From positions 5,766,001 to 5,830,000 of the forward strand of contig NZ_AP018920.1 of assembly GCF_003945385.1 (NCBI RefSeq): DNA of 64,000 nucleotides, read 5' to 3'. This DNA is from Pseudonocardia autotrophica. GTDB lineage: Bacteria > Actinomycetota > Actinomycetes > Mycobacteriales > Pseudonocardiaceae. This document shows, piece by piece, positions 5,501 through 27,342 of this stretch (the stretch's first letter is position 1; each line of letters begins with the position of its first letter). The notes beneath the pieces are model-generated. The model ran no database searches and was not told where the DNA came from. It saw only the letters and a list, made by a program, of their open reading frames with translations. The translations under genes were made by a program, and so were the position numbers.

Positions 5501-5754
5501 AGCGGCTGCTCGACCACGCCCGCCGGTTCCGCTCGGCGAAGTACGAGGCGCTCGCGCTGGCCCGGCTCGGACGGCCGGCGGAAGCCTTCGCCGCGGCCGG
5601 GCGCACCGGGTCCGACCTGATCGTGGCGCTGGTCGGGCCGGATGCCGTGCGCACCCAGGCGCTGGACCGCATCCGGGCCGGCCTGCCGCCCGATCTGCGC
5701 TCGGACTTCGCCAGCCGGGGCAAGCTGATCAGGCCGGCTCCGGTCCCGCGGTGA
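2575..5754 (+). CDS. SARP/BTAD-family STAND transcriptional regulator
   Basis: This 1059-residue protein has the AfsR/SARP layout: an OmpR-type winged helix (about residues 10-95, with 'LADRLWPAEPPSLPLRNLAALVSRLRR'), a BTAD helical domain (about 100-245), an AAA/STAND ATPase with Walker A GEPGIGKS at residues 295-302, then TPR-like helical repeats to the end. No LuxR-type helix-turn-helix is visible at the C-terminus, so DNA binding should be N-terminal. Such proteins act as ATP-switched activators of specialised or catabolic genes. It diverges from meaA and its end overlaps the end of the acetyltransferase gene by 26 bases, so it borders the accessory island. Its targets are unknown. Start ATG 2575; ATG 2584 is an alternative. 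Confidence 0.8.
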   Translation: MPRMQDGVVRVELVGTLTVTGDITEPLPGGRARSLLGMLAVRHGRFVPAATLADRLWPAEPPSLPLRNLAALVSRLRRSIGRDRVEGGPRAYRLVLDPWTTVDLSEAVALVGMAENELAQGRPGLALRNSGRGVALLDAGIALADEPDGLWVDGARSEVATLLARARRCRWAAALTVGDHETALAESTRALAVDPLDEDAARATMRAHEARSAPADALAAYERLRRELTTRLGVDPSTESEQLYLRILRGTTGPAPAARTSSTAAPVGREREHAVLEQMWDDAVRGRGRLAVLRGEPGIGKSTLATEIGHRAERSGGVTVHVRCAEAERSLYLQPFAEVVRDLLVHGDPDDAGRLPPSDRAALATLVPELDRGRATADVSELRHRRTVDALAGLLHRVAEEHPLMIGIDDIENAGQSTIEVLHYLAGRLADSATLIVVTENDTEDHRATSTIEDVARIVDVGPLSREAVQTLLTRAGSRHDPEHFFTWTGGSPLLISELLRHPPPDGERLDAAPVPATLHDALVHRLESTTEDVRDLLAQASVLGRSFSVDDVAALTGIPIEVCAQRCERAQRAGLVGASQDGGEFRFASEILRRTVYAESPRPVRVSRHRRAAALHPDRPEAAAGHLTAAGDHLGAARAWLHAADVAHLVFAHVESERMLTHAVEQAELGADPVLAAQARLRRGAVRCDLARHDDARHDHEHALAVARELADEQLEARAVEALGWTALHARDALTAVDLAEQAGHLAESAAAAPGAQRSSILLLGRVRHWDGDYRGAERAYDDVLALGTGDALSATATAYRGALLQHLDRFDEARSTLERAVELSTSTGEFRTLLQSLFFCALSRGDMGDFAGALRALRRARRLIDEAGVDYYRAGIETTTSWLFQELGQIDRAREHAEQAVDLARRGGGALELEQELHALLALADCDLLDGREDDAGRRVDEAAPLLSLPLPYRPRAEMRLLQMQARWDLDPAERLLDHARRFRSAKYEALALARLGRPAEAFAAAGRTGSDLIVALVGPDAVRTQALDRIRAGLPPDLRSDFASRGKLIRPAPVPR

Positions 5755-6211
5755 GCGGGATGCTCATCGCGACGTGGGTGAAGCCCGCGTAGTCCTCCAG
5801 CCCCTCGGTGGTCCAGCCGAGCCGCTCGAAGAAGGCCCGGTTCGGCGGCTGCACGTGCGCGACCATCCGCGTCCCGCCGCGCTCGCCAGCGGTCGCCACC
5901 GCGAACCGGACCAGCGGACCACCCGCCCCGACCACCCGGCGTCCGGGCAACACGGCGAGCCGGTCCCCGCGCCAGCAGCCCGCCCCCACCGGGTAGAGGC
6001 GCACGGTCCCGACCGGCTCGCCGCCCGCGATGGCGAGCACGTGCAGGGTGTCCGGATCCGCGTCGTGCCGGTCGAGATCGTCGCCGGTGAAGATCTCCTG
6101 CTCGACGACGAACACGGCGTGCCGGATCCGGTGGTGCTCGGCGAGCTCGGCGCCGGTGACGATCCGGACCTCGACCGCCTGCCGGGTGCCGACCGGCCGG
6201 GCGGCGGTCAC
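5729..6211 (-). CDS. GNAT N-acetyltransferase, MSMEG_0567/Sll0786 family
   Basis: This 160-residue GNAT-fold protein has the family start 'IRHAVFVVEQEIFTGDD', a 'RLAVLPGRR' strand ahead of the acetyl-CoA loop, and 'NRAFFERLGW' near the end. These features match the MSMEG_0567/Sll0786 acetyltransferases of Nit1C (nitrilase) clusters. The acyl acceptor is not known for the family. GTG 6211 overlaps the stop of the radical SAM gene (GTGA), showing translational coupling and a shared transcript. It is the last gene of the leftward unit that starts at the 8015-8040 operator. Assignment rests on recalled motifs plus the diagnostic neighbour, a MSMEG_0568-type radical SAM gene. Confidence 0.8.
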   Translation of the reverse strand: MTAARPVGTRQAVEVRIVTGAELAEHHRIRHAVFVVEQEIFTGDDLDRHDADPDTLHVLAIAGGEPVGTVRLYPVGAGCWRGDRLAVLPGRRVVGAGGPLVRFAVATAGERGGTRMVAHVQPPNRAFFERLGWTTEGLEDYAGFTHVAMSIPLTAGPEPA

Positions 6212-7383
6212 GCCGGGTCCGGTGGGCGCGGTCCGATCTGCAGCAGCGGTGGCGTGCGCTGCACGGCGTCGATCGCGGAGCAGGCCTGGCACCGGGCGCA
6301 GCCGGCGACCGCGTCGTCGGCACTCATCCCGCGCAGGCTCATGTGCGCGGCGACCCGGCGGTAGATCCGCGAGCTGTACTCCGACGACGGCGGCCGCTGG
6401 TCGGCCATCAGGCTGCCCGCCACCGGGCGCAGCGGCACCACGAACGGATAGACACCGATGTCGATCGCCCGCCGGCACCCCTCGACCGTCACCTCCGGGT
6501 CCTCCCCCATCCCGAGGATGACGTAGGTGGAGACCCGGCCCCGCCCCCACAGCTCGACGGCGCGTTCCCAGGTCCGGAAGTAGGTCTCGATCCCGGTGCG
6601 GAACTTGCCCGGCGCCACCCGGGCGAGCACCTGCGGATCGAAGCTCTCGACATGGATGCCGACCGCGTCCGCGCCGCCGATCCGGTGCACCTCGTCGAGG
6701 ATGCCGAGATCCCGCGGCGGCTCGAACTGGATCTCCACCGGCAGCCCGCTGGCGTCCTTCACGGCCCGGCCGCAACGCGCCACGTACCGGGCGCCGCGGT
6801 CCGGCGCGGTCGAGCTGCCGGTCGTCAGCGTCACGTCCACGACGCCGTCGAGGTCGCGCGCGGCGACCGACACCTCGGCGAGCTGCTCGGGCGTCTTGCG
6901 GGCGATCGTCGCGCCGGAGTCGAGCGACACCCCGATCCCGCAGAACGTGCACTGGTCGGCGGTGTTCCAGTAGTTGCAGGCCTGCACGACCGTGCTGGCC
7001 AGCGAGTCCAGGTGCAGCAGCGCGATCTTCTCGTAGGGCACGCCGTCGGCGGTGCTCAGATCGTAGAACCGCGGGCGCCGCGATCTCGACACCCCGGCGA
7101 GCCGCCGGCCGTCCCGGTAGATCCCGTTGCCGCCACCGTCCTCGGGCACCAGCACGTAGGGCGTCGGCGCGTCCGGGTCGGTGACGGTCGGGACGGTCAC
7201 CGGACGGCCCTCCAGCCAGAGCATCCCGGAGTCGCTGGGGCCGGCACCGCCGGTGCGACGCTCGACGGGCGCCTCGACCCGCACCCCGTGACTCTGCAAT
7301 GCCGAGATCAGCTCGCCCAGATCGGGCGGCGCCGGGCCGTCACCCGGCGTCCGGCCGGTGTGCGTATCGGGTACTGCCGTCAT
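6208..7383 (-). CDS. Radical SAM protein, MSMEG_0568 family
   Basis: This 391-residue protein has a Cys triad C136, C145, C148 in CNYWNTADQCTFCGIG, i.e. CX8CX2C rather than the usual CX3CX2C. It is followed by barrel strands such as 'VDVTLTTGSSTAPDRG' and 'VEIQFEPPRDL'. A second triad CARCQAC (C362, C365, C368) near the C-terminus could hold an auxiliary Fe-S cluster. Overall it resembles the MSMEG_0568/Sll0785 family found in Nit1C clusters; substrate unknown. ATG 7383 overlaps the upstream stop (ATGA), and its own stop overlaps the acetyltransferase start, so the three leftward genes are coupled. The odd triad spacing may be normal for the family; I cannot check that here. Confidence 0.85.
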   Translation of the reverse strand: MTAVPDTHTGRTPGDGPAPPDLGELISALQSHGVRVEAPVERRTGGAGPSDSGMLWLEGRPVTVPTVTDPDAPTPYVLVPEDGGGNGIYRDGRRLAGVSRSRRPRFYDLSTADGVPYEKIALLHLDSLASTVVQACNYWNTADQCTFCGIGVSLDSGATIARKTPEQLAEVSVAARDLDGVVDVTLTTGSSTAPDRGARYVARCGRAVKDASGLPVEIQFEPPRDLGILDEVHRIGGADAVGIHVESFDPQVLARVAPGKFRTGIETYFRTWERAVELWGRGRVSTYVILGMGEDPEVTVEGCRRAIDIGVYPFVVPLRPVAGSLMADQRPPSSEYSSRIYRRVAAHMSLRGMSADDAVAGCARCQACSAIDAVQRTPPLLQIGPRPPDPA

Positions 7384-8015
7384 CTGCCCTCCATCGGGTC
7401 GGTGCCGTCGCTGCCCACCGGACCGGGATGCCCACCGATCAGGTCCCGGAGCCGCTCCTGCTCGGTCAGCCATCGGTCGACGTCATGACACGGGGTGCCG
7501 TCGTCGGCCGCACCGGCGAACCGTCCGGTCCGCAGATCGACCGTCGCCTCGGCGACCCGGTAGGGCGGGTCACCGAGGTACGGGTCGGCGGTGGCGACCA
7601 CGGCCCGGCCACTCGCCAGGTGCACCTCGACGACCCGGGTCGGCTCGCGCACCAGCACGGCCCACTCCAGCCCGGTCTCCCGGGCCGACTCGATCGCCTC
7701 GCGGCGGTCGCGGCCGGCGCGCTCGGCGACCAGTTCATCGGCACGCACCGCGCACGCCGCGGCCAGCACGTCCGGCGGGGCGGAACCGGTGCGCTCGGCG
7801 GCCAGCAGCTCGTCGAGGCTGTGCGCCTGCTCGCGCAACGTCGTCAGCACGGCGCCGACGGCGTCGGTCAGCTGCCGGTACCGCTCGCCGTCGGCGAGAG
7901 CCATCGGCCAGAGCCGGTCGGCCGCCGCCTGCCAGCGGCGTCGCGCCTCGGTGACGCCGTCGGTTCCCGGATCCGCCACGGCCCGTCTCGTTCCCGAGCG
8001 ATTCCCCACACTCAC
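7380..8015 (-). CDS. Unrecognised 211-aa protein, first gene of the radical SAM operon
   Basis: I do not recognise this protein. It is soluble and Arg/Asp/Ala-rich. The N-terminal 110 residues look helical ('RWQAAADRLWPMALADGERYRQLTD'), and the second half looks beta-rich ('VHLASGRAVVATADPYLGDPPY', 'EATVDLRTGRFAG'). One Cys sits in 'DDGTPCHDVDRW'. GTG 8015 directly abuts the palindromic operator at 8015-8040. The predicted leftward -10 ends about eight bases upstream, so the mRNA would be leaderless or nearly so. Coupling to the radical SAM gene (ATGA overlap) suggests an accessory or partner protein for it, which is inference only. Confidence 0.65.
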   Translation of the reverse strand: MSVGNRSGTRRAVADPGTDGVTEARRRWQAAADRLWPMALADGERYRQLTDAVGAVLTTLREQAHSLDELLAAERTGSAPPDVLAAACAVRADELVAERAGRDRREAIESARETGLEWAVLVREPTRVVEVHLASGRAVVATADPYLGDPPYRVAEATVDLRTGRFAGAADDGTPCHDVDRWLTEQERLRDLIGGHPGPVGSDGTDPMEGR

Positions 8016-8040
8016 GAACGTACACTATAGTAGATGTTCG
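8015..8040. promoter_or_regulatory. Palindromic operator/divergent promoter A of the island
   Basis: A 26-bp imperfect palindrome centred between 8027 and 8028: outer arms CGAAC...GTTCG and core ACTATAGTAGAT. It contains -10-like hexamers in both directions (TATAGT at 8026-8031 rightward; its mirror at 8024-8029 leftward). The leftward transcript would begin at about the GTG of the 211-aa gene. The rightward one would have a leader of about 50 bases before carbamate kinase. The core matches 12 of 16 positions of the element at 22640-22655. Confidence 0.75.
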
Positions 8041-8089
8041 TAGCGGATCGAAGGTGCCGGTGCGCACGTCGAGGATCGGGAGGGTGCAG

Positions 8090-9052
8090 ATGCCCAAGAC
8101 GGCAGTCGTCGCGCTGGGCGGGAACGCCATCACGCGCAACGGCGAGGCGGGGACCCATGCCGAGCAGGCGGCCAACGCCCGCCGGATGGCCCGGGCGGTC
8201 TGCACGTTGCGCGACGCCGGCTGGAACGTCGTGCTGGTGCACGGGAACGGCCCGCAGGTCGGCAACCTGGCGATCCAGCAGGAGGACGCGGCCGGCCGGG
8301 TCCCGGCCCAGCCGCTGTTCGTGACGAACGCGATGACCCAGGGCCAGCTCGGCAGCCTGCTCGAACTGGCACTGCTCGCGGAGGGCCGGGGACGGCTGGC
8401 CGGGGTGGTCTCGATGGTGACCCACGTGATCGTCGAACCGGACGATCCGGCGTTCGAGAACCCCACCAAACCGGTCGGACCGTTCTTCACCGAACAGGAG
8501 GCCGCCGAGCTCGCCGAGGCCCGCGGCTGGGCGATCGTGCGCGACGGTGCGCGCGGACACCGGCGGGTCGTCCCCTCCCCGCGACCGATCGGGATCGTCG
8601 AGGCCGATGCGATCCGGGCACTGATCGATCAACACATGATCGTCGTCGCCGGCGGGGGCGGTGGCATCCCGGTGATCGCGGGCGACCGGGGTCTGGAGGG
8701 CATCGACGCGGTCGTCGACAAGGACTACACCGCCCAGCGGATCGCCGTCTCGGTCAACGCCGACGCACTGGTACTGGTCACCGACACCGAGAAGGTGCAG
8801 CTGGACTTCGGCACCGACCACCAGCGCCCGATCACCGAGATGAGCGTGGAGGAGGCCCTCAAGCATCTCGACGACGGCCAGTTCCCGGAGGGCTCGATGG
8901 GACCGAAGGTGCGGGCCGCGGTGCGGTTCCTGCGTGAGGGCGGCGGCACGGCGGTGATCACCACGGCGGAGCGGGCCGGCCCGTCCCTGGACACCGGCGA
9001 GGACCGGGCCGACGACGCCGTCGGCACCCGGATCGTCGGGAGCCGGACGTGA
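8090..9052 (+). CDS. Carbamate kinase (catabolic)
   Basis: This is a 320-residue amino-acid-kinase-fold enzyme with VALGGNAI at the N-terminus, HGNGPQVG, the 'VVAGGGGGIPV' nucleotide loop, 'VVDKDYTAQRIA' and 'LVLVTDTEKV'. All are standard carbamate kinase motifs. Length is typical. It transfers phosphate between carbamoyl phosphate and ADP, giving ATP, CO2 and NH3 in the catabolic direction. I chose ATG 8090 because GGGAGG lies just upstream and the protein then begins MPKTAVVALGGN; the frame is open to GTG 8054. The gene overlaps fdrA (GTGA), the arrangement seen in oxamate/allantoin catabolism, where AllK uses the carbamoyl phosphate released by the AllFGH enzyme. Confidence 0.93.
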   Translation: MPKTAVVALGGNAITRNGEAGTHAEQAANARRMARAVCTLRDAGWNVVLVHGNGPQVGNLAIQQEDAAGRVPAQPLFVTNAMTQGQLGSLLELALLAEGRGRLAGVVSMVTHVIVEPDDPAFENPTKPVGPFFTEQEAAELAEARGWAIVRDGARGHRRVVPSPRPIGIVEADAIRALIDQHMIVVAGGGGGIPVIAGDRGLEGIDAVVDKDYTAQRIAVSVNADALVLVTDTEKVQLDFGTDHQRPITEMSVEEALKHLDDGQFPEGSMGPKVRAAVRFLREGGGTAVITTAERAGPSLDTGEDRADDAVGTRIVGSRT

Positions 9053-10608
9053 CCGCGCGGGTGACGGTGCTGGCCGACACCTACCTGGACTCCGTGGTGC
9101 AGCTGACCGGGACCCGGGCGATGCGGGCCGTCGAGGGCGTCGAGTGGGCGAGCGCGGCGATGGCGACCGCGGCCAACCTGGCCACCCTGGCCGAGCTCGG
9201 CTTCGCGCCGGCGAGCTGGGACGGCGCCGGGCCGGGCGACCTGGTACTCGCCGTCCGGGCGCGCGACGAGCAGACCGCCGGTGCCGCCGAGGACGCCGGC
9301 CGGGCCGCGCTGTTCCCCGCGGGCGCCGACGATCCCGGCCACACCCACGACGACTCCCCGCGGACGCTGGCCGGAGCGCTGGACCGGCAGCCGGGGAGCA
9401 CCGTCGCGGTGATCTCCGTCGGCGGCGACTACGCCGCGCTGGAGACCACCAAGGCCCTGACCGCCGGATTGCACGTGCTGCTGTTCAGCGACAACGTGTC
9501 GGTCGCCGAGGAGATCGAGCTGAAGGCCATGGCCACCGAGCTGGGGCTGCTGGTGATGGGCCCCGGTGCCGGGACCGCGATGCTCGACCGGACCTGCCTC
9601 GGTTTCGCCAACGTGGTGGGCCGGGCCGAGGAGCGGACCGGCTCGGTCGCCGTCGTCGCGGCGGCGGGCACCGGGGCGCAGGAGGCGGCGAGCCTGCTCG
9701 ACCGCGCCGGCGTCGGCGTCCGGCACGTCATCGGGCTCGGCGGGCGGGATCTCTCCGCCGCGGTGGGCGGGCCGATGGGCCGGCTCGCCGTGCGCTCGCT
9801 CGCCGCCGACCCGGATGTCCAGGCGATCCTGCTGGTCTCCAAACCGCCGGATCCCGAGGTCGCCGCCGCGGTGCTCGCCGAGGCCGGGGACACCCCGCTG
9901 GTCGCCACCCTGATCGGGCTCGACGAGGCCGCCGGAGCACACGATCCGCCCGGGACCATCCGCTCCTCGACCCTGGAGGGCGGGGTCGCCGCCACCCTGC
10001 GACTGCTGGGCCACGAGGTCCCGGACACCACGACCGGGCTGCGCGCCCGGGTCGAGGAGGCCGTGCGCGACCTGCCGGCCGACCGGCGCCTGGTCCGCGG
10101 GCTGTTCTCCGGCGGGACGCTCTGTTACGAGTCGCTGGTCCTGCTCGAGGCCGAGCTCGGCCCGGTGCACTCCAACACCCCCCTCGACGCGGCCCGGGGC
10201 CTGCCAGCGCCGTCCGGTGCGCACGTCTGCCTCGACCTCGGCGAGGAGGAGTTCACCCGCGGCCGCCCGCACCCGATGATCGACCCGGAGGCCCGGGTCG
10301 AGCACCTGCGGGAGACCGGCCGGGAGGACGACGTCGCGGTGATCCTGCTCGACGTCGTGCTCGGGCACGGCGCGCATCCGGACCCGGCGGCCGAGCTGGG
10401 TCCGGTCTGCGCGGACATCCTGCATGCCGGCGGGCCGGCGATCGTCGTCTACGTACTGGGCACCGAGCAGGATCCGCAGGGCTTCGAACGCCAGCGGGCC
10501 GCCTTCGCCGGAATCGGCTGCGTGGTGGCCGAGACCGCCGCCCGGGCCTCGCTCGCCGCGGCGGCGATCGCCGCCCGGACCCCGGGGATCGTGGAGCGGG
10601 CGCTGTGA
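9049..10608 (+). CDS. fdrA: FdrA/AllF-type acyl-CoA-synthetase-like subunit of oxamate carbamoyltransferase
   Basis: This 519-residue protein has the FdrA start ('YLDSVVQLTGTRAMRAVEGVEWASAAM'), a succinyl-CoA-synthetase-like nucleotide fold ('VISVGGDYAALETTKAL', 'LGLLVMGPGAGTAMLD') and the FdrA-specific 'GLFSGGTLCYESL' followed by 'LGEEEFTRGRPHPMIDP'. E. coli FdrA with YlbE and YlbF forms oxamic transcarbamylase (AllFGH), which turns oxalurate plus phosphate into oxamate and carbamoyl phosphate. Homologues of the other two subunits are at 15643 and 14780, in a separate operon. GTG 9049 overlaps the carbamate kinase stop, and its stop overlaps the glycosyltransferase start. The substrate here could differ from oxalurate. 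Confidence 0.85.
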   Translation: MTARVTVLADTYLDSVVQLTGTRAMRAVEGVEWASAAMATAANLATLAELGFAPASWDGAGPGDLVLAVRARDEQTAGAAEDAGRAALFPAGADDPGHTHDDSPRTLAGALDRQPGSTVAVISVGGDYAALETTKALTAGLHVLLFSDNVSVAEEIELKAMATELGLLVMGPGAGTAMLDRTCLGFANVVGRAEERTGSVAVVAAAGTGAQEAASLLDRAGVGVRHVIGLGGRDLSAAVGGPMGRLAVRSLAADPDVQAILLVSKPPDPEVAAAVLAEAGDTPLVATLIGLDEAAGAHDPPGTIRSSTLEGGVAATLRLLGHEVPDTTTGLRARVEEAVRDLPADRRLVRGLFSGGTLCYESLVLLEAELGPVHSNTPLDAARGLPAPSGAHVCLDLGEEEFTRGRPHPMIDPEARVEHLRETGREDDVAVILLDVVLGHGAHPDPAAELGPVCADILHAGGPAIVVYVLGTEQDPQGFERQRAAFAGIGCVVAETAARASLAAAAIAARTPGIVERAL

Positions 10609-11762
10609 CCGGCCTGGCGCTGGTCACCCACTCGACGTCCCCGCGCGGCGGGATGGTGCACACCCTCGCCCTGGCCGAGGCGTTGCAGGCCGCCGGGACC
10701 CCGGTCCACCTCGTCACCCAGGGCGATCCGGCCGCCGGGCTGCACCGGCACACGACGGTGCCCTTCACCGTGCTGCCGGCCCCGGACCGCTCCGGCACGC
10801 TCACCGACCGGGTGTACGCCTCGATCGACGCGCTCACCGCGGCGTTGCACGACCTGAGCGGCGCGTTCGACGTGCTGCACGCCCAGGACTGCATCGCCGC
10901 CCGGGCCGCCGCGCGGGTACGCGACGCGGGTGCCCGGGTGTCGGTGGTCCGCACCGTGCACCACGTCGACGACTTCACCACTCCCGCGCTGGTGGCCTGC
11001 CAGCAGGCGGCGATCGTCGAGCCCGACCGGGTGCTCGTGGTCAGCCGCCAGTGGGAGCGGATCCTGCGCGACGAGTACGGGGTACCGGCGACCGTGGTCC
11101 CCAACGGTGTCGACGCCGGCCGGTTCGGGCCGGTCGCGGACGGGTACCGGGAGCAGCTGCGCCGGTCGATCGGCGCCGGGGACCGCTTCGTCCTGCTCGG
11201 GGTCGGCGGGATCGAGCCGCGCAAGGGGACCCGGCACGCGTTCGAGGCGCTGTCCCGGCTGTACCGCTCCGGCACGCGGCCGGTGCTGGCGATCGTCGGC
11301 GGCCACTCGTTCCAGGACTACGCCGCCTACCGCGAGGAGGCGCTGGCCGCGCTGCCGGGGCTAGGGCTCGAGCTCGGGCGCGACGTCGTGCTGCTCGGCA
11401 CCGTCGACGACCGGACGCTGTCCGGCTGGTACCGCAGTGCCGACGCGCTGCTGTTCCCGTCGGTCAAGGAGGGCTGGGGGCTGGCGGTGCTCGAGGCGAT
11501 GGCCGCCGACCTGCCGGTGATCGCCTCGGACCTGCCGGTCTTCCGGGAGTACCTGGTCGACGGGCGGAACGCGCTGCTCCCCGCCGTCGGGGACGCGTCC
11601 GCGATCGCGGACGCGGTCGCGGCCGTCGTCGCCGACCCGGAACTGCGGGAGCGGCTCCGCGACGGCGGGCGGCGCACCGTGCCCGGCTACACCTGGCAGC
11701 GCAGTGCCGCTGCGCACCGGGCCGTCTACGACCGGCTCCGTGCCGGGGAGCCGGTGTCCTGA
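10605..11762 (+). CDS. Glycosyltransferase family 4, MSMEG_0565 family
   Basis: This 385-residue GT-B-fold enzyme has 'THSTSPRGGMVHTLALAEAL' at the N-terminus, 'FDVLHAQDCIAA', 'TVHHVDDFTTPAL', 'VVPNGVDAGRFGP' and the EX7E motif in 'EGWGLAVLEAMAADLPV'. The first block and 'VHHVDDF' are diagnostic of the MSMEG_0565 glycosyltransferases of Nit1C clusters. Sugar donor and acceptor are unknown. GTG 10605 overlaps the fdrA stop by four bases, so carbamate kinase, FdrA and this enzyme share one transcript, which ends at a perfect 17-bp hairpin. Confidence 0.88.
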   Translation: MTGLALVTHSTSPRGGMVHTLALAEALQAAGTPVHLVTQGDPAAGLHRHTTVPFTVLPAPDRSGTLTDRVYASIDALTAALHDLSGAFDVLHAQDCIAARAAARVRDAGARVSVVRTVHHVDDFTTPALVACQQAAIVEPDRVLVVSRQWERILRDEYGVPATVVPNGVDAGRFGPVADGYREQLRRSIGAGDRFVLLGVGGIEPRKGTRHAFEALSRLYRSGTRPVLAIVGGHSFQDYAAYREEALAALPGLGLELGRDVVLLGTVDDRTLSGWYRSADALLFPSVKEGWGLAVLEAMAADLPVIASDLPVFREYLVDGRNALLPAVGDASAIADAVAAVVADPELRERLRDGGRRTVPGYTWQRSAAAHRAVYDRLRAGEPVS

Positions 11763-19546: not shown

Positions 19547-19553
19547 GGCTGCC

Positions 19554-20912: not shown

Positions 20913-21826
20913 TGCGGCTCCTCCCGCCCGGCGAGTGTCAGCAGTGCGTCCCGCACGGTCTCCAGCGACGACCCCCACGGCACCGACACCCACGGCAGAC
21001 CGTCGGTGGTGCCGCTGCGCATCTCCTCCTGCTGCAGGCAGCACTTGGTCAGCAGCGGGCCGGTCGGGGGTTGCACCAGCGGGCAGATGTCGACGCCCGG
21101 GGCGTCGTCGCCGTAGAACCACTTGTGGATCTGCCGGGTCCGCTCGCAGCCGAGCAGCGTCCAGTCCGCGCGCTCCGGACGTTCATCCAGATAGGACAAC
21201 CGCACGCCGGGGATCTCGGCGCCGCCACCCCGGCAGGGCAGCAGGTAGTGGCCTGCGGGATGCCGGGCGGCCAGCTCCGGCAGCTCGACGATCTCGGGAT
21301 CGAGCCGCACCGGGCGCAGCGTCTCGGTCACCGCGACCACCCGGTTCGCCTGGTCCAGCAGCTTCGGCGGGTACGGCGGGACGACCTCGCGCACCGTCAC
21401 CACCATCGGCTCGGGATCGAGCACGAAGTTGACGTGGGCGTAGCGGCCCAGCACGACGACCGCCCGCGCGCCGGGGGCACCCTCGGTCGCGGCCGCGACC
21501 AGCGCGGACGGGATCGCCGTGTCGCAGTCGGGGGCCGTCACCAGCGCGCACTCGTCCGGCCCGGCCAGCACCGTCACCCCGGTGATCGGGGCGAACAGCG
21601 ACTCGGGATCGTCGCGGGTGACCGCGACCAGGGCGACCGGTCCGGGCCCGAGGCCGGTCCGGCCGTGATGGACCACCACGAACCGGGTCTTCCAGTACGC
21701 CTCCCGGCCGAGGAGCAGCGACTGCAGGGCAGCCCCGTCGGTCAGCGGCACGTCGACCCGGGCCACCGCGACACCCCGGTACCGGCCGGGAATCGTGTTG
21801 GAGCGCCTCCGCTGCGGGACGGTCAC
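20897..21826 (-). CDS. Unrecognised 309-aa protein with conserved-looking cysteines
   Basis: I cannot assign a function. The protein is soluble, alpha/beta in appearance, starts 'GRYRGVAVARVDVP', has a repeated 'VLGRYAHVNFVLDPEPM' type strand-helix unit, and carries cysteines in 'HYLLPCRGGG', 'WTLLGCERTRQIHKWFYGDD', 'GVDICPLVQ' and 'LLTKCCLQQEE'. The last four Cys cluster in the C-terminal third, beside His and Asp, and could bind a metal or Fe-S cluster. GTG 21826 overlaps the ComA-like stop (GTGA) and its end overlaps the next lyase. Since nickel-cofactor genes lie in the same island and no LarA is present, it is worth testing as a metal-binding catalytic component. Confidence 0.65.
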   Translation of the reverse strand: MTVPQRRRSNTIPGRYRGVAVARVDVPLTDGAALQSLLLGREAYWKTRFVVVHHGRTGLGPGPVALVAVTRDDPESLFAPITGVTVLAGPDECALVTAPDCDTAIPSALVAAATEGAPGARAVVVLGRYAHVNFVLDPEPMVVTVREVVPPYPPKLLDQANRVVAVTETLRPVRLDPEIVELPELAARHPAGHYLLPCRGGGAEIPGVRLSYLDERPERADWTLLGCERTRQIHKWFYGDDAPGVDICPLVQPPTGPLLTKCCLQQEEMRSGTTDGLPWVSVPWGSSLETVRDALLTLAGREEPQWSPA

Positions 21827-22608
21827 GAGTCCCGTCCGGCGAGCGTCGGCCGCGCCGTGGCGTGCGCGGTGTCCGAGCGCAGCCCCAGCCGGAGGGTCTC
21901 GACCCCCAGCAGCTCGCCCGGGGCGATGTTCCCGAGATTGACCTCCGGCCCGAAGCGCCGCACGAACCAGGCCTGCTGGGCGGCGCGGGGGGCCTCGAAC
22001 ACGACGTCGCCGGCACCCACCGCGGCGACCAGTGCCTCGACGACCTCCGGCCGCACGGCGCCCGCGGCGTCATAGATTCCGACGGTGCCGCTCTGCCGCC
22101 CCTCGGCCACGACGAGGTCCGCGCCGGCGTCGAGATCACCCAGCGCCTCGTCCCGCCACGCGGACGGGACCGCCGCCTCCGCCGGATCCTTGGTCCCGAC
22201 CTCGGCGAGCACCGTGAAGCGGGTCGCGGCGTGGCGGATCAGCGCACGCTTGGCCGCGAGCGGCATGGCGACGGTGCCACGGGAGACCTCGACGTGGCTG
22301 AAGCCCGCCTCGGCCGCCCAGTCCAGGCACCGGTGGTCCGCGCCCTGGGCCCAGGCGATCTCGAGCAGGGTCCCGCCGAGGCAGGTCGCGACCTGCGCGC
22401 CGTGCAGCAGGGCGAGCTTCTCCCGCAGCGTCGGGTCGAGATAGGCGGTGCCCCAGCCGGCCTTCCAGATGTCGGCGGACCGGCCCGCCGAACGCAGCAG
22501 GTCGGCGAGCGCGGCGACGCCGGTCCCGGCGTCGAGCACGTGCGTGATCCCGACCCGCCGGGGCTTCGGGGGGCGCCGGGGGAGCTCGAGGAAGTCGGCT
22601 GCGGACAC
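21823..22608 (-). CDS. Phosphosulfolactate synthase (ComA)-like protein
   Basis: This 261-residue TIM-barrel protein has 'RRVGITHVLDAGTGVAALADLL', 'DIWKAGWGTAYLDP', 'GGTLLEIAW', 'GFSHVEVSRGTVAMPLAAKRALI', 'LVVAEGRQSGTVGIY' and 'EAPRAAQQAWFVRRFGPEVNLGNI'. This covers the whole ComA/HSA32 family pattern, including the Lys and acidic metal-binding positions. ComA adds sulfite to phosphoenolpyruvate to give phosphosulfolactate; bacterial homologues outside coenzyme M biosynthesis are mostly uncharacterised. GTG 22608 has AGGATG upstream and is the first gene of the seven-gene leftward operon. The -10 TACAAT lies inside the 22640-22655 operator, giving a leader of about 35-40 bases. Confidence 0.85.
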   Translation of the reverse strand: MSAADFLELPRRPPKPRRVGITHVLDAGTGVAALADLLRSAGRSADIWKAGWGTAYLDPTLREKLALLHGAQVATCLGGTLLEIAWAQGADHRCLDWAAEAGFSHVEVSRGTVAMPLAAKRALIRHAATRFTVLAEVGTKDPAEAAVPSAWRDEALGDLDAGADLVVAEGRQSGTVGIYDAAGAVRPEVVEALVAAVGAGDVVFEAPRAAQQAWFVRRFGPEVNLGNIAPGELLGVETLRLGLRSDTAHATARPTLAGRDS

Positions 22609-22639: not shown

Positions 22640-22655
22640 ATCTACTATTGTAGAT
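22640..22655. promoter_or_regulatory. Operator/divergent promoter B, near-perfect inverted repeat
   Basis: ATCTACTATTGTAGAT is a 16-bp inverted repeat with one mismatched pair beside its AT centre. It contains -10 hexamers for both directions: TACTAT (22643-22648) rightward and TACAAT leftward. The rightward ATG at 22656 directly follows the repeat, seven bases after the hexamer, so that mRNA should be leaderless. It is the best-formed copy of the element found at 8015-8040, 27332-27366 and 14165-14180. Confidence 0.8.
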
Positions 22656-23645
22656 ATGACTCGCATCCCGGCATCTGCCCCCGCGCCGCCCGGGCCCGAC
22701 GTCGCCGAGCTGGCACGCGTGGTCCGCGACCACCCCGGATGGACGGCGAAGGCGGCGATCGGCCTGGTGTCCGACGTCGTCGGCCCCACCGACTGGGAAG
22801 CCGGTCCCGGCGACGACGGCGCCGTGGTCCGCACCGCCGGTGGCCGGGTCGTGGCCTGCGGGGAGGCGGTGTGGCCACCGTTCGTGCAACGCGACCCGCG
22901 GGCCGCCGGTTTCGCCGCGGTCCTGACCAACGTCAACGACGTGGCCGCGATGGGCGCCCGGCCGCTGGGGATCGTCGACACGGTGGTCGCCCCCGCCGGC
23001 GTCGCCCGGGCCGTCCTGGAGGGGCTCCGCGAGGGCTGTGCGCTGTTCGGCATCCCGCTGCTCGGCGGCCACCTCACCCCGCACGACGGGACACCGGCGG
23101 TGTCCGCGTTCGCGCTCGGGGAGCTCGACGACCGGGCGCTGTCGGTGACCCGCTGCGCGCCCGGCCAGAGCCTGGTGGTCGCCGCCGCACTGGACGGCCG
23201 GATGCGCCCGGACTTCCCGTTCTTCCCTGCTTTCGAGAACCGGCGCGACCGGTGCGCCGGCGACGTCGCCGTCCTGGCCCGGCTCGCCGCCTCGGGCGCG
23301 GCGGCGGCCGCGAAGGACATCAGCATGGCCGGGCTGGTCGGCTCGCTGGCGATGCTGCTGGAGTGGGGGCCGTTCGGCGTCGAGCTCGACCTGGACGCGG
23401 TACCCCGGCCCGCCGGGGTCGGCCCGGCCGAGTGGCTGACCTGCTTCCCCAGCTTCGGGTTCCTGCTGACGACCCCGGCCGGCCGGGAACCGGAGGTGCT
23501 CGCCGCCTTCCACGAGCGCGATCTCGCCGCGGCGGTCGTCGGACGGCTCGACGACGGCGGGGTGCTGTCCCTGCGGCGCGGCGCGGACCGCGCGGTCGTC
23601 GCCGATCTTCGGACCGATCGGGTCACCGGACTGGTGCGGGCGTGA
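22656..23645 (+). CDS. AIR-synthase-like protein, Sll0787 family
   Basis: This 329-residue protein of the PurM/HypE/SelD/ThiL ATP-binding fold has 'DHPGWTAKAAIGLVSDVVGP', 'PGDDGAVV', 'PFVQRDPRAAGFAAVLTNVNDVAAMGARPLGIVDTVV', 'GIPLLGGHLTPHDG' and 'AAAKDISMAGLVGSLAMLLEWG'. The pattern matches the Sll0787 AIR-synthase-related family, a regular member of Nit1C clusters. Such enzymes phosphorylate an amide, carbamoyl or acid oxygen; the substrate is unknown. The ATG abuts the operator, so the message is predicted to be leaderless. It diverges from the seven-gene operon. Confidence 0.88.
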   Translation: MTRIPASAPAPPGPDVAELARVVRDHPGWTAKAAIGLVSDVVGPTDWEAGPGDDGAVVRTAGGRVVACGEAVWPPFVQRDPRAAGFAAVLTNVNDVAAMGARPLGIVDTVVAPAGVARAVLEGLREGCALFGIPLLGGHLTPHDGTPAVSAFALGELDDRALSVTRCAPGQSLVVAAALDGRMRPDFPFFPAFENRRDRCAGDVAVLARLAASGAAAAAKDISMAGLVGSLAMLLEWGPFGVELDLDAVPRPAGVGPAEWLTCFPSFGFLLTTPAGREPEVLAAFHERDLAAAVVGRLDDGGVLSLRRGADRAVVADLRTDRVTGLVRA

Positions 23646-23673: not shown

Positions 23674-24042
23674 TCACCAGCCCACGGCGTCGACGGCGCG
23701 TGCCGGGATCGGCCCCGCAGGGCGCAACGCGACGTCGGTGGCCAGCGCGAAGAGCCGCTCCGCCCACTCCGGGTCCCGCCAGGTGTGCTGCTCGGCGAAG
23801 TCGGACCACCGGCTCGGCGGCACCACCGCGGCCGCGCTCCAGTCGAGCTCGTGCCAGGTCACCGCCAGCTCCATCAGATCGAGCAGCTCACCGGGGTCGG
23901 TCTCGACCCGGCACAGCCGATCGTGGTGCTCGGCCCACCCGCCGTCCCGGTATCGGCACCCGATCGCGCGTACGACCGGCGGATCCGCACGCACCACCCG
24001 GATCGGGAGCACCGACGGGGACGGAACCGGCTGCACTGACAT
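23674..24042 (-). CDS. Unrecognised 122-aa protein
   Basis: I do not recognise this soluble acidic protein. It has an N-terminal beta-rich stretch 'PSVLPIRVVRADPPVVRAIGCRYRDGGW', then 'DPGELLDLMELAVTWHELDWSAAAVVPPSRWSDFAEQHTWRDPEWAERLF', rich in Trp/His/Asp. A single Cys lies in 'AIGCRYRD'. ATG 24042 has GGAGG nine bases upstream. It converges on the AIR-like gene with a 28-base gap and diverges from the OsmC gene, consistent with an island gene of its own. Confidence 0.55.
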   Translation of the reverse strand: MSVQPVPSPSVLPIRVVRADPPVVRAIGCRYRDGGWAEHHDRLCRVETDPGELLDLMELAVTWHELDWSAAAVVPPSRWSDFAEQHTWRDPEWAERLFALATDVALRPAGPIPARAVDAVGW

Positions 24043-24135: not shown

Positions 24136-24549
24136 GTGGAACGACAGGTGACGGCGGTCCGTGAGGCCGGTCTGCGGTGCCGGGTGCGGGCGGGTGAGCA
24201 CGAGTTCGTCGTCGACGAACCGGCCTCGGTCGGCGGCACCGACCAGGGGCCGCAGCCGACCGACATGCTGCTCGGCGCCGTCGCCTCCTGCTTCACGATC
24301 GCGCTGTCCTACTGCGCGGCCCGGCGGGGCCTGGCCCCGGACCCGGTGCGGGTCGAGGTGACCGGCACCTACGACGGCCCGCGGTTCCGCTCGATCACGG
24401 TCTCCGCGGTCGTCGGCGGAGTGTCCCCCGACGAGCTGGCACGACTGACCGCCGAGGCCGAGCGGGTCTGCTACGTGACCAACACGCTGCGCGGCGGCCC
24501 GGAGATCGAGGTACGCACGTCGGTCGCCGATGGCGGCACGGGCCGGTGA
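24136..24549 (+). CDS. OsmC-family protein
   Basis: This 137-residue OsmC/Ohr-fold protein has 'VDEPASVGGTDQGPQPTDMLLGAVASCFTIALSYCAARRGL', where the first Cys of the family lies in ASCFT, a second Cys in SYCAA, and a later 'ERVCYVTNTLRG' region. The usual peroxidatic pair in Ohr/OsmC is one Cys after ASC and one near VCPY; here the second is in VCYV, so peroxidase activity is plausible but the subfamily is open (YhfA-like alternatives exist). GTG 24136 has GAGGGAGC upstream. Its end lies six bases from the converging larE stop. Confidence 0.8.
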   Translation: MERQVTAVREAGLRCRVRAGEHEFVVDEPASVGGTDQGPQPTDMLLGAVASCFTIALSYCAARRGLAPDPVRVEVTGTYDGPRFRSITVSAVVGGVSPDELARLTAEAERVCYVTNTLRGGPEIEVRTSVADGGTGR

Positions 24550-24555
24550 GGGCGC

Positions 24556-25431
24556 TCAGCGGCCGGGCGGCCGGAGCCGGACGAACGCGCGACCGGGGGC
24601 GTAGGGCAGCGCGTCCAGCTGCGCGGGTCCGAGCCCGGCCGAGTGCTCGCGCATCACCCGGCTCACCGCAGCGAGCACCGGCTCGGTGACCCGGTGCCGG
24701 TCGTCGTCACCCACCTCGATCCGCACCTGCTGCCCACGCACCCGGCACCGCACCGTCCGCATCCCGGTCAGCTCACGCAGGAGCTGCTCGCCCGCCTCCA
24801 CCGCGCGCAGCAGATCGGGCGTGACCCGGGTGCCGCTGTAGAGCCGGCTGGCCAGGCACGGTGCCGCGGGCAGGTCGTGCCACGCCCGGCCACGGGCGGC
24901 GGCCAGCTCCCGGATCGCGGCCTTGCCGGCGCCCGCCTCGACGAACGGGTGCCGCACCCGGTGCTCGGCGGCGGCGCGCAACCCGGGCCGGTACTCGCCC
25001 AGGTCGTCGAGGTTGGCGCCGCTGAGCAGCACCGCGTCCGCGACGTCGGACGCCGCGGCGACCCGGTCCAGCTCGTCGTAGAGGTGGGTCTTGCAGTGGA
25101 AGCACCGGTCGGTCGGGTTGGCCAGGTAGCGCTCGTCGCCGAACTCGCCGGAGCGGACCAGCCGCAGGCGCCAGCCGAGCCGGTGCGCGGTCGTCACCAC
25201 CCGGCGGGTGGCCTCGTCCGGCACCGCCGGGGTGACCGCGTGCACCACGAGTGTCGACGCCGGGTCCGCGGCATGTGCCAGGTCGGACAGCAGCAGGCTG
25301 TCGACACCCCCGCTGCACGCCACCACCCGGTGGCCCATCCCGGCCAGCAACCCGGTGACCGAGGCGTGCAGGTCCGGTGCGATGACCGGCTCGCCCCCCG
25401 GCCCGCACACCGCCATCACCCGCCCCCGCAT
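24556..25431 (-). CDS. larE: LarE, ATP-dependent sulfur-transferase of nickel-pincer nucleotide synthesis
   Basis: This 291-residue PP-loop ATPase has 'RVVACSGGVDSLLLSDLAH' (SGGxDS pyrophosphatase loop), 'NPTDRCFHCKTHLYDEL', 'VLLSGANLDDLGEYRPGL' and 'APCLASRLYSGTRV', the standard LarE order. LarE adds sulfur to pyridinium-3,5-biscarboxylic acid mononucleotide. Three cysteines are visible (C110, C113 and C192), as in LarE types thought to use a Fe-S-bound sulfide rather than sacrificing their own Cys. Start is uncertain: ATG 25431 is used, and ATG 25416 is possible. It diverges from larB-larC, 65 bases away, giving the three biosynthetic genes together. Confidence 0.9.
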   Translation of the reverse strand: MRGRVMAVCGPGGEPVIAPDLHASVTGLLAGMGHRVVACSGGVDSLLLSDLAHAADPASTLVVHAVTPAVPDEATRRVVTTAHRLGWRLRLVRSGEFGDERYLANPTDRCFHCKTHLYDELDRVAAASDVADAVLLSGANLDDLGEYRPGLRAAAEHRVRHPFVEAGAGKAAIRELAAARGRAWHDLPAAPCLASRLYSGTRVTPDLLRAVEAGEQLLRELTGMRTVRCRVRGQQVRIEVGDDDRHRVTEPVLAAVSRVMREHSAGLGPAQLDALPYAPGRAFVRLRPPGR

Positions 25432-25495
25432 CGTCGCGCAGCTCACGAGCCGACGACGATACTCGCGCCAGGACCACCCGAGGAGGGTGCGCACG

Positions 25496-26164
25496 ATGGA
25501 TCCGGAGCCAGCCGCACGGCTCGACCACGACCGGCTGCGACGCACCGGCGACCCCGAGGTGATCTTCGGCCAGGGCAAGACACCCGACCAGGTCGTCGAG
25601 CTGATGACCGAGCTGCACGCCACCCACCCGGAGCGGGCGGTGCTGGCCACCCGGCTCGACGACGCGATGTTCGACGCGCTCGCCGCGGCGCTGCCCGCGG
25701 CGGCACTGCACCGGGACGCGCGGGCGGCGACGCTGGGGCCGTTCCCCCCGTCGAACGGCTCGGTGCTGGTGGTGACCGGAGGGACCGCCGACATCCCGGT
25801 CGCCCGGGAGGCCGCGTTGAGCGTGCTCGTGCACGGTGCGCACGCACGGGTCATCGCCGACGTCGGGGTGGCCGGCGTGCACCGGGTGCTGGCGATCCGC
25901 GACGACCTCGGCCGGGCGGACTGCGTCGTCGTGGTCGCCGGCATGGAGGGGGCCCTCACCAGCGTCGTCGGTGGACTCACCGGGGTCCCGGTACTCGCCG
26001 TCCCGACTTCGACCGGCTACGGCGCGGCATTCGGTGGCCTGGCCGCCCTGCTCGGGATGCTCACCTCCTGCGCCCCCGGGACGGCGGTGGTCAACATCGA
26101 CAACGGCTACGGGGCCGGAGTACTCGCCGCCCGGATCGCCCGCCGCACGGCGGGACCGCGATGA
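25496..26164 (+). CDS. larB: LarB, nicotinic acid adenine dinucleotide carboxylase/hydrolase
   Basis: This 222-residue protein has 'DHDRLRRTGDPEVIFGQGKTPDQVVELM' at the N-terminus and a PurE-like C-terminal domain: 'VLVVTGGTADIPVAREAALSVL', 'DVGVAGVHRVLA', 'VVVAGMEGALTSVVGGLTGVPVLAVPTSTGYGAAFGGLAALLGML'. LarB carboxylates and hydrolyses NaAD to pyridinium-3,5-biscarboxylic acid mononucleotide, the first step to the nickel-pincer cofactor. GAGGAGG precedes ATG 25496. Its stop overlaps the larC start (ATGA). Confidence 0.93.
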   Translation: MDPEPAARLDHDRLRRTGDPEVIFGQGKTPDQVVELMTELHATHPERAVLATRLDDAMFDALAAALPAAALHRDARAATLGPFPPSNGSVLVVTGGTADIPVAREAALSVLVHGAHARVIADVGVAGVHRVLAIRDDLGRADCVVVVAGMEGALTSVVGGLTGVPVLAVPTSTGYGAAFGGLAALLGMLTSCAPGTAVVNIDNGYGAGVLAARIARRTAGPR

Positions 26165-27342
26165 TCGGCTGGATCGACGCGACCGCGGGCGCCTCCGGCG
26201 ACATGCTGCTCGGCGCGCTGCTCGGCGCGGGAGTACCACTGGACGTCCTGCAGGACGCGGTGGACGCACTGGCCCCCGGCGAGGTCCGGCTGGCGGCCGA
26301 GGAGGTCACCCGGGGCGGGTTGGCCGCCGTGCACTGCCGGGTGGCGGTGGCTGCCGCCCCGCACACCCACCGCAGATGGCGGGAGATCTCCGCGACGCTG
26401 GACACCGCGCCGCTCGACGACGCCGTCCGCGAGCGTGCCCGTGCGGCGTTCGCCCGGCTCGCCGCGGCCGAGGCCACGGTGCACCGCTCCCCGGTGGACG
26501 AGGTCGCGTTCCACGAGGTCGGCGCCCTCGACTCGATCGCCGACGTCGTGGGCACCTGCGCCGGGCTCACCCACCTCGGCCTGGAGCGGCTCACCGTGTC
26601 GACGATCGCCGTCGGATCCGGCCGCGTCCGCGGGGCGCACGGATCGCTGCCGGTGCCGGTGCCGGCCGTGGTCGAGCTGCTGCGCGGGGTCCCGACGACG
26701 AGCGGACCGGGCAGCACCGAGTCCTGCACCCCGACCGGTGCGGCGCTGCTGCGGACCTGGTCGCAGGGATACGGCCCGCAACCCCCGATGGTCGTGGAGG
26801 CGGTCGGCGTCGGCGCAGGCGGCCGGGACCCGTCCGGGCACGCGAACGTCCTGCGCCTGCTGGCGGGGCATCCGGTCCCGGACGGAGCCGGCACCGGCCA
26901 GGTCGTCCTGGTGGAGACGAACGTCGACGACATGGACCCGCGGTTGTGGCCGTCGGTACTCGCCGATCTGCTGTCCGCGGGCGCCCTGGACGCCTGGCTG
27001 ACCCCGATTCTGATGAAGAAGGGACGGCCGGCGCACGTCCTCAGCGCGCTCGTGCCACCGGACCTGCTGACCGCCGCAGCGGCGGTGATCTTCGCGACCA
27101 CCTCGGCGATCGGCTTGCGGCACACCACCTGGGAGCGGGACGTGCTGGAGCGCGAGATCCGCTCGGTGACCGTGCACGGCCATCCGGTGCGGGTCAAGAT
27201 CGCCCGCCGGGACGGACGGGTGCTGAACGCCCAGCCGGAGTACGACGACGTCGAGGCCGTCGCCCGGGCGTCCGGGCGCTCACCGGCCGGGGTGCTCGCC
27301 GCGGCGCTCGCGGCGCTTCCCGCGGACTGGCGATCGCTATAG
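26161..27342 (+). CDS. larC: LarC, nickel insertion enzyme of nickel-pincer nucleotide synthesis (undivided)
   Basis: This 393-residue protein has 'GWIDATAGASGDMLLGALLGAGVPL', 'VHRSPVDEVAFHEVGALDSIADVVG' with the conserved His/Glu, 'VETNVDDMDPRLWPSVLADLL', 'LMKKGRPAHVL' and 'SAIGLRHTTWERDVLEREI'. These are the complete LarC pattern. In Lactobacillus the gene is split into larC1/larC2 and needs a frameshift; here it is one continuous frame. It inserts nickel using CTP (established). Its last bases overlap the operator of the amidohydrolase gene. Confidence 0.94.
   Translation: MIGWIDATAGASGDMLLGALLGAGVPLDVLQDAVDALAPGEVRLAAEEVTRGGLAAVHCRVAVAAAPHTHRRWREISATLDTAPLDDAVRERARAAFARLAAAEATVHRSPVDEVAFHEVGALDSIADVVGTCAGLTHLGLERLTVSTIAVGSGRVRGAHGSLPVPVPAVVELLRGVPTTSGPGSTESCTPTGAALLRTWSQGYGPQPPMVVEAVGVGAGGRDPSGHANVLRLLAGHPVPDGAGTGQVVLVETNVDDMDPRLWPSVLADLLSAGALDAWLTPILMKKGRPAHVLSALVPPDLLTAAAAVIFATTSAIGLRHTTWERDVLEREIRSVTVHGHPVRVKIARRDGRVLNAQPEYDDVEAVARASGRSPAGVLAAALAALPADWRSL

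Follow-up and report, generated by a model that had tools for sequence, protein, structure and literature searches.

A conserved gene cluster of Pseudonocardia autotrophica and related actinobacteria joins predicted coenzyme M synthesis to Nit1C-type and carbamoyl-transfer genes

The window, that is, the whole stretch of DNA analysed here, spans 64 kb (positions 5766001-5830000 of contig C1) of the 7.5-Mb genome of Pseudonocardia autotrophica; it contains a gene cluster that joins predicted coenzyme M (CoM) synthesis to Nit1C-type and carbamoyl genes, a conserved assembly that recurs in dozens of related genomes. Its genes were assigned by profile scans (NCBIfam, Pfam) of the coding frames of window 1-34 kb, and they are collected in Table 1. 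A preliminary description, made from the sequence alone, had recognised five Nit1C families: those of MSMEG_0565, 0567, 0568 and 0572 all score above their NCBIfam cut-offs, and the Sll0787-like protein has TIGR04049 as its best match at a score below the cut-off. FdrA/AllG/AllH, carbamate kinase and LarE/LarB/LarC, also listed there, were all recovered by the scans; as that description had stated, no nitrilase, MSMEG_0569 or MSMEG_0570 occurs among the scanned frames, and none of the eight PF00795 matches of the genome falls in the window. What had been missed were the CoM genes and the flavoenzyme, which are the centre of the cluster.

Table 1. Features of the cluster and its borders, in window coordinates
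Feature	Position	Strand	Evidence and remarks
AfsR/SARP-type ATPase regulator adjoining the cluster	2575..5754	+	Pfam BTAD, AAA_16; 24/80 loci
MSMEG_0567-type GNAT acyltransferase	5729..6250, start approximate	-	TIGR04045 89.5 bits, cut-off 68.45
MSMEG_0568-type radical SAM (S-adenosylmethionine) enzyme, variant group	6208..7473	-	TIGR04043 386.3 bits, cut-off 303.7
orf211, conserved 211-aa protein	7380..8015	-	No Pfam/NCBIfam match; tblastn 27/80 loci
Operator-like palindrome in the orf211-carbamate kinase interval	8020..8035	.	3 mismatches to ATCTACTATnGTAGAT
Carbamate kinase (ArcC/AllK)	8054..9052	+	NF009007 278.5 bits, cut-off 266; TIGR00746 338.5, cut-off 358.25
FdrA/AllF-like carbamoyltransferase subunit	9049..10608	+	PRK06091 FdrA 355.5 bits, cut-off 433
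MSMEG_0565-type GT4 glycosyltransferase	10605..11762, start approximate	+	TIGR04047 353.5 bits, cut-off 259.85
MSMEG_0572/Sll0783 protein, predicted DsrE fold	11937..12422	-	TIGR04044 219.2 bits, cut-off 109.85
Small helical 88-aa protein	12477..12743	-	No family/fold match; tblastn 79/80 loci
CoA-disulfide-reductase-like flavoenzyme	12740..14170	-	Single active-site Cys (YSPCGIPYVHG)
Helix-turn-helix (HTH)-cupin transcriptional regulator	14205..14849	+	Pfam HTH_31, Cupin_2; 70/80 loci
AllH-like carbamoyltransferase subunit	14780..15646	-	PF11392 69.8 bits, cut-off 25
AllG-like carbamoyltransferase subunit	15643..17070, start approximate	-	PF06545 184.4 bits, cut-off 27
XcbC-like CoM-synthesis enzyme	17061..18572	-	NF052535 420.3 bits, best family, cut-off 575
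XcbE-like pyridoxal-phosphate enzyme, CoM synthesis	18569..19560, start approximate	-	NF052537 214.2 bits, best family, cut-off 450
XcbD-like CoM-synthesis enzyme	19554..20915, start approximate	-	NF052536 553 bits, best family, cut-off 600
XcbA, CoM synthesis	20897..21826	-	NF052538 301.9 bits, cut-off 150
ComA/XcbB phosphosulfolactate synthase	21823..22608	-	TIGR03849 216.2 bits, best family, cut-off 280
Operator-like palindrome ATCTACTATTGTAGAT between ComA and AIRS gene	22640..22655	.	
Sll0787/methanogenesis-marker-2-like AIR-synthase-family (AIRS) protein	22656..23645	+	TIGR04049 249.6 bits, cut-off 321.3; TIGR03267 187.3, cut-off 365
Conserved 122-aa protein, here between AIRS and OsmC genes	23674..24042	-	No Pfam match; tblastn 27/80 loci
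OsmC-family protein	24136..24549	+	PF02566 69.1 bits; 49/80 loci
LarE sacrificial sulfur transferase, peripheral	24556..25440, start approximate	-	TIGR00268 232.4 bits, cut-off 150
LarB-like AIR-carboxylase-family protein, peripheral	25496..26164	+	PF00731 42.4 bits, cut-off 30
LarC nickel insertion protein, peripheral	26161..27342, start approximate	+	TIGR00299 194.1 bits, NF052512 138.5, PF01969 424.4
Operator-like site over amidohydrolase start	27351..27366	.	3 mismatches
PF04909 amidohydrolase	27365..28192	+	Conserved His/Asp in 16-sequence alignment; most relatives have nitrile hydratase instead

As for the CoM genes, the products of window 17061-22608 have ComA, XcbA, XcbD, XcbE and XcbC as their respective best NCBIfam matches, the genes are colinear in that order, and the segment is predicted to be a CoM biosynthesis operon; the same order occurs in the bacterial xcbABCDE operon at four loci of the class (L034-L037). 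In a sample of 394 genomes from this class XcbA was found in 15, and the neighbourhoods of all 15 were inspected, up to ~20-36 kb each. Seven carry the cluster (this genome, G212, G068, G051, G027, G220 and G351; five families, with some clusters split over contigs); at the other eight XcbA loci, two of them on contigs shorter than 8 kb, queries for Nit1C, AllFGH, carbamate kinase, OsmC and nitrile hydratase gave no match. The window proteins are 38-66% identical to those of these eight loci, five of which have a distant relative of the flavoenzyme (28-30% identity). Unlike the known bacterial operon, that of the window sits in a nitrogen gene set, and no Meth_synt_2-type CoM transferase gene was found with it: the Meth_synt_2-family gene that stands beside XcbA at locus L182, used as a tblastn query, found no relative in the window or in the 80 loci described below. 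This query is a weak control, which in the eight other XcbA loci returned one partial match of 35% at the edge of L034; a MetE-like motif, a poor control, had no match in them. Because the query gives that single partial match, the eight are not shown to be epoxide loci.

The distribution of the cluster was followed more widely with an alignment of the flavoenzyme, which was scanned against 84,980 species genomes; 183 relatives were obtained and 80 loci kept, in which gene presence was scored by tblastn with the window genes, many loci being cut by contig ends. The flavoenzyme is present in 80/80 loci by construction, as the search query, and, besides the counts given in Table 1, the others are MSMEG_0572 (74 loci), XcbC (49), ComA (46), the glycosyltransferase and XcbD (45 each), AllG (44), XcbA (43), FdrA and the GNAT protein (42 each), XcbE (41), carbamate kinase (40), the AIRS protein (34), and the radical SAM enzyme and AllH (33 each). 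When presence was scored by modules (at least one CoM gene, carbamoyltransferase subunit, nitrile hydratase or amidohydrolase, Nit1C core gene, and MSMEG_0572), all were found in 34 of the 42 loci of at least 20 kb. The cluster is thus a co-conserved system; the preliminary description had asked for such a comparison of neighbourhoods, and the lack of co-conservation that it had named as an adverse outcome did not occur.

Almost all hosts belong to the Actinobacteria (Pseudonocardia, Actinomycetospora, Nocardioides, Geodermatophilus, Nonomuraea and metagenome-assembled genomes, MAGs, of Acidimicrobiia); one MAG each is labelled Dormiibacterota, Acidobacteria and Bacillota. Of the named clusters fetched, that of Pseudonocardia ammonioxydans is nearest, its flavoenzyme being 92% identical. 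Parts of the cluster and a nitrile hydratase also occur in four MAG records (L116, L117, L118 and L120) under the title Bifidobacterium breve, a name that looks doubtful.

XcbA is found above cut-off in 48 of the 49 whole genomes behind flavoenzyme loci (19/19 and 29/30 in two sets), therefore the role of CoM seems central. In P. hydrocarbonoxydans (G409, L073) and a Pseudonocardia MAG (G410, L072), ComA and XcbC lie in the cluster, and XcbA, XcbD and XcbE are absent from the fetched stretch and found elsewhere in the genome, where the copies bear more resemblance to XcbA loci of the other type; next to one such copy of G410 is a gene of the Meth_synt_2 family (84.9 bits), as would be expected of an epoxyalkane:CoM transferase. 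In G409 the genes for XcbA, XcbD and XcbE are on a separate contig from the cluster with ComA and XcbC; since this genome holds a single XcbA, the two parts probably form one complete pathway, a natural complementation which argues that the product needed by the cluster is CoM itself.

Regarding the Nit1C core, its radical SAM enzyme forms a group of its own. TIGR04043 is matched above cut-off in 54 of the 394 class genomes, with bimodal scores (48 copies at 480-524 bits, 7 copies at 371-396 bits), and the seven genomes with a low-scoring copy are exactly the seven cluster genomes (hypergeometric 2.3e-11, kinship not corrected); the variant (360-402 bits) was present in 19/19 further whole genomes tested. 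P. autotrophica has another Nit1C locus, L165 (G000:C1:2361606-2369244, at 2.36 Mb), 3.4 Mb from the window, of the canonical actinobacterial type: it encodes MSMEG_0565, two CN-hydrolases, MSMEG_0567 (a fused GNAT-AIRS protein), 0568, 0572 and 0569 (636.5 bits), all above NCBIfam cut-offs except the CN-hydrolases. Because a canonical Nit1C exists elsewhere in the genome, the window cluster is an additional system and not a decayed copy.

When Nit1C was described, in 2005, its function was not known (PMC1199592, excerpt); in Pseudomonas nit1C is required for cyanide assimilation, through its nitrilase (PMC11049912, excerpt). Compared with that system (nitBCDEFGH of Podar 2005 and of Pseudomonas cyanotrophs), the new cluster shares MSMEG_0572, the radical SAM enzyme, the GNAT and AIRS proteins and, as in some Nit1C clusters, the glycosyltransferase, along with a nitrile-converting enzyme beside MSMEG_0572 and a pyridine-nucleotide flavoenzyme. 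It differs in having a nitrile hydratase or amidohydrolase in place of the nitrilase and a CoA-disulfide-reductase-like enzyme without MSMEG_0569, in adding CoM biosynthesis, AllFGH and carbamate kinase, and in the separate, lower-scoring group of its radical SAM enzyme. The AIRS protein matches both methanogenesis marker 2 and Sll0787, each below the cut-off, which hints at a possible link of CoM to the AIRS family.

A linked nitrilase just outside the window, named in the preliminary description as evidence that would speak against it, was not found; the best match in the genome to the Sll0784-type nitrilase model TIGR04048, ~0.9 Mb away, has 224.9 bits against a cut-off of 502.6, and matches above this cut-off are absent from this genome and from the 394 class genomes. 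This Nit6803-like protein was rejected as a member of the system, as it sits among amidase and other-clade nitrile hydratase genes; the nitrilase, the amidase and another nitrile hydratase are found in one stretch, G000:C1:6713752-6722414.

In most relatives, the place of the nitrilase is taken by a nitrile hydratase, whose alpha subunit was found in 49 of the 80 loci, in 38 of these directly downstream of MSMEG_0572 and on the same strand. The PF04909 amidohydrolase occurs in 14 loci, the two enzymes together in 0/80 and neither in 17/80; because hydratase and amidohydrolase alternate across loci, they probably do the same step. No nitrile hydratase was found in the window, the genome having two of other clades outside the cluster; none was found in nine other genomes with the amidohydrolase form, searched whole. 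The preliminary description had proposed a new pathway that uses the Nit1C core on another substrate: a separate pathway is supported by the variant radical SAM enzyme and by co-conservation, but the other substrate is doubtful because of this replacement of nitrilase by nitrile hydratase, and nitrile chemistry still looks likely.

The cluster hydratases are of the cobalt type, to judge from the CTLCSC motif of 17 aligned alpha copies (one as CSLCSC). In the example of L041 the alpha subunit has 302.8 bits with TIGR01323 (cut-off 249.85), the accessory protein is above its cut-off, and the beta subunit reaches 151.9 against 152.2; identification as thiocyanate hydrolase was rejected, the same alpha subunit having 191.4 bits with a model whose cut-off is 291.45. 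In a tree of 57 rows (47 from cluster loci and 10 from whole-genome matches, five of these in cluster context; 5 rows with fewer than 150 aligned residues were dropped, and 1 match, L154, was not recovered), the cluster enzymes group together with a support of 94/99, separate from the industrial enzyme of P. thermophila and from both nitrile hydratases of P. autotrophica. With the cobalt-type enzyme of P. thermophila (PDB 1IRE/1UGP) the cluster copies share the family, the CTLCSC motif and the accessory protein, and they differ in forming a separate group. P. thermophila itself (L155, L156), the species of the solved industrial enzyme, has a second nitrile hydratase inside the CoM-linked set; the two are not to be equated, as the solved enzyme matches the other paralogue with 415.8 bits versus 236.2 for the cluster copy.

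Two proteins of the cluster may handle sulfur. The MSMEG_0572/Sll0783 family is predicted to have a DsrE/TusD fold: a model with a predicted local distance difference test (pLDDT) value of 83.4 had DsrEFH, DsrE-like, YchN and TusBCD structures (2hy5, 3mc3, 1jx7) as top Foldseek matches, the best being 2hy5 chain B (E 1e-6). Its Cys114 is invariant in 34 sequences and was aligned to a Cys of 3mc3 by a weak profile match (E 0.013). A YchN-like fold was tentatively proposed for ORF1 of Nit1C, which is MSMEG_0572, by Podar et al. (PMC1199592, excerpt). As for the flavoenzyme, the solved structures that match it best are those of NADH oxidases, CoA-persulfide reductase and CoA-disulfide reductases, with 2-oxopropyl-CoM reductase far down the list. 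A structure search with the 88-aa protein found no fold match.

The carbamoyl enzymes resemble those of E. coli allFGHK, with homologues of the three subunits and of the kinase in the window; AllFGH is the proven oxamate carbamoyltransferase of E. coli, with the N-carbamoyl substrate oxalurate (PMC11326118, excerpt). Unlike the E. coli protein, the window AllG is in a divergent group, and oxalurate is an unlikely carbamoyl donor for it. AllG occurs in 88 of the 394 class genomes, and a low-scoring copy (187.7-221.2 bits) is present in 7/7 cluster genomes; two genomes without the cluster, G290 (197.9 bits) and G383 (226.2), have scores like those of this group. A second, classical AllG (299.7 bits) lies with FdrA at 0.29 Mb in the P. 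autotrophica genome.

Several units of the cluster have in common the operator-like site noted in the preliminary description: ATCTACTATTGTAGAT, a 16-base palindrome at 22640, has relatives with three mismatches each at 8020 and 27351, against 0.02 chance matches expected in the window, and only these two sites are independent because the pattern was taken from the one at 22640. A symmetrised motif had 26 occurrences in the 80 loci versus 0 in one mononucleotide shuffle of each; where a known gene follows the motif by no more than 250 bases, it is mostly carbamate kinase/ArcC (15) or ComA (8), and beyond the first dozen loci of the list the majority lack the motif. Because the site is rich in AT against a GC-rich background and could coincide in part with a promoter -10 element, its operator role is only suggested. 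Clustering of unassigned open reading frames (ORFs; at least 80 aa, common to at least five loci, 10-kb flanks) gave only two families, the 122-aa protein (24 loci) and a nickel/cobalt transporter of the HoxN/NixA type (11 loci: L090:7629-8675 and ten others). No organic-substrate transporter recurs among these ORFs, which fits a diffusible substrate such as hydrogen cyanide (HCN).

Regarding its function, a role of the cluster in nitrile or cyanide nitrogen metabolism appears probable. In a more specific reading, it may be a second, CoM-linked form of Nit1C that assimilates the nitrogen of C≡N compounds via a thiol-borne cyano group and carbamoyl phosphate; this is put forward tentatively, as it is somewhat more apt to be wrong than right. 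Phosphorolysis is sensible only with a carbamoyl group on a hetero-atom, therefore the nitrile is probably a thiocyanate or a cyanamide, and since CoM is made by the same gene set, CoM thiocyanate (CoM-S-CN) is the simplest candidate; CoM as the cyano carrier is, taken by itself, a doubtful proposition. Cyanide is known to open disulfides to give thiocyanates. The first step would accordingly be the attack of cyanide on a CoM disulfide or persulfide to give CoM-S-CN, with the DsrE-like protein and the flavoenzyme handling the sulfur redox chemistry; the nitrile hydratase, or here the amidohydrolase, would then add water to give CoM-S-CONH2. In the third step the AllFGH-like enzyme would exchange CoM for inorganic phosphate, releasing carbamoyl phosphate and free CoM, and in the fourth carbamate kinase would yield ATP, ammonia and CO2. 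The radical SAM enzyme and the GNAT, AIRS and glycosyltransferase proteins would make a further factor for cyanide capture, as may hold in canonical Nit1C. Among the matches listed in a search of open-licence literature (titles and beginnings of abstracts), CoM was not found joined to Nit1C, nitrile hydratase or oxamate carbamoyltransferase.

However, it should be noted that several points weigh against this scheme. As for the assignments, four of the five CoM proteins (ComA, XcbC, XcbD and XcbE, all except XcbA) score below the curated NCBIfam cut-offs, and AllH matches are weak. As for conservation, 8 of the 42 loci of at least 20 kb are without one or more modules in view, FdrA was not seen beside carbamate kinase in P. 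thermophila (L155), and G441, a 2.5-Mb MAG, has the flavoenzyme without XcbA. In P. spinosispora (L163) an amidohydrolase, 45% identical, adjoins the cluster nitrile hydratase, which contradicts a strict exclusion between the two enzymes; because the amidohydrolase has no PDB relative by sequence, nitrile hydration by the window copy, in a genome without the cluster nitrile hydratase, is a guess. As for the chemistry, another thiol or an amine may be the cyano carrier, the known AllFGH using an N-carbamoyl substrate, and four conserved Nit1C genes (for the radical SAM, GNAT, AIRS and glycosyltransferase proteins) and three small proteins are outside the steps of the scheme. In addition, if the AIRS protein acted like HypE, which works in the direction from amide to nitrile, it would run opposite to the scheme and point to biosynthesis.

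A biosynthetic cluster is indeed the rival that survives best, and it is an unlikely explanation that deserves to be taken seriously. Here the kinase and AllFGH would carbamoylate a substrate, the HypE-like AIRS protein would dehydrate the carbamoyl group, a cofactor or natural product that contains CoM would be built by the Nit1C core together with the GNAT and glycosyltransferase proteins, and its completion would fall to the nitrile hydratase or amidohydrolase. The AIRS, GNAT and radical SAM proteins and a GT4 enzyme with weak similarity to MshA/BshA do resemble a cofactor or thiol assembly line, and the lack of a recurrent organic-substrate importer is in keeping with it, but the unassigned ORFs include no recurrent exporter or additional consumer enzyme, the nitrile hydratase would reverse the nitrile made by the AIRS protein, and in canonical Nit1C this core is linked to cyanide assimilation.

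A different carrier is the next possibility, and a less probable one: nitrile or cyanide would still be assimilated to carbamoyl phosphate, with an amine or an as yet unnamed thiol from the Nit1C core as the acceptor, and CoM would serve another enzyme of the set, for example as a reductant for the flavoenzyme and the OsmC protein. The canonical locus L165, which has the core without CoM genes, is consistent with this, as is the N-carbamoyl substrate of E. coli AllFGH (PMC11326118, excerpt); the presence of XcbA in nearly all flavoenzyme genomes argues against it, since the role of CoM then seems central.

That the locus is a plain ureide (oxalurate) degradation locus beside a degenerate Nit1C is highly improbable: AllFGH and carbamate kinase are present and the cupin half of the regulator weakly matches ureidoglycine aminohydrolase, but the classical AllG with FdrA exists at 0.29 Mb in this genome, and the window AllG belongs to the low-scoring group of all seven cluster genomes, though G290 and G383 score alike. 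Least credible is a standard CoM-dependent pathway for alkenes or epoxides, with chance neighbours; known bacterial CoM clusters do serve epoxides (PMC8727900 and PMC11507031, excerpts), but the L182 Meth_synt_2 query, a weak control, has no relative in the window or the 80 loci, the Nit1C, AllFGH, carbamate kinase and nitrile hydratase queries miss the eight other XcbA loci, and the window set is co-conserved.

At the border of the cluster, the nickel-cofactor genes, which the preliminary description had counted in the set, are present in the window and are not part of its conserved core. LarBCE adjoin the cluster in 8/80 loci, all from Pseudonocardia (L056, L063, L065, L072-L076), as in this genome, and were therefore rejected as core; in P. 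dioxanivorans (L184) they are also beside the cluster, outside the first view. Homologues of the three proteins of nickel-pincer synthesis are thus found without the LarA of the known system: no LarA (PF09861) was found in the nine LarBCE-linked genomes searched (this one and the eight others; P. dioxanivorans was not among them), and LarBCE without LarA were reported in ~15% of the genomes analysed in a 2024 paper (PMC11796402, excerpt). An orphan nickel-pincer cofactor with a client other than LarA is a lead separate from the function proposed for the cluster. CoM as the sulfur donor for LarE was dropped, with no support among the matches listed from open-licence literature (titles and beginnings of abstracts). 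After the cluster, window 28652-32584 encodes a FadD5-like acyl-CoA ligase and two acyl-CoA dehydrogenases, which are not seen as part of it.

In conclusion, the cluster makes it conceivable, though on present evidence unlikely, that aerobic actinobacteria load cyanide on CoM, hydrate it to S-carbamoyl-CoM and harvest carbamoyl phosphate, gaining nitrogen and ATP. If true, CoM would have a third biological role besides those in methanogenesis and epoxide metabolism, and a use of CoM outside these two would be new in bacteria; the finding would also add a second substrate for the AllFGH family and suggest a general logic of Nit1C, in which the nitrilase simply forgoes ATP. With the fate of the nitrile spelled out (hydratase, carbamoyltransferase, kinase) and a named thiol, the question of what the Nit1C core does becomes open to direct assay. 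The LarBCE genes without LarA offer a lead on users of the nickel-pincer cofactor other than LarA, and the organisms that carry the cluster may be of interest for the clean-up of cyanide and nitriles.

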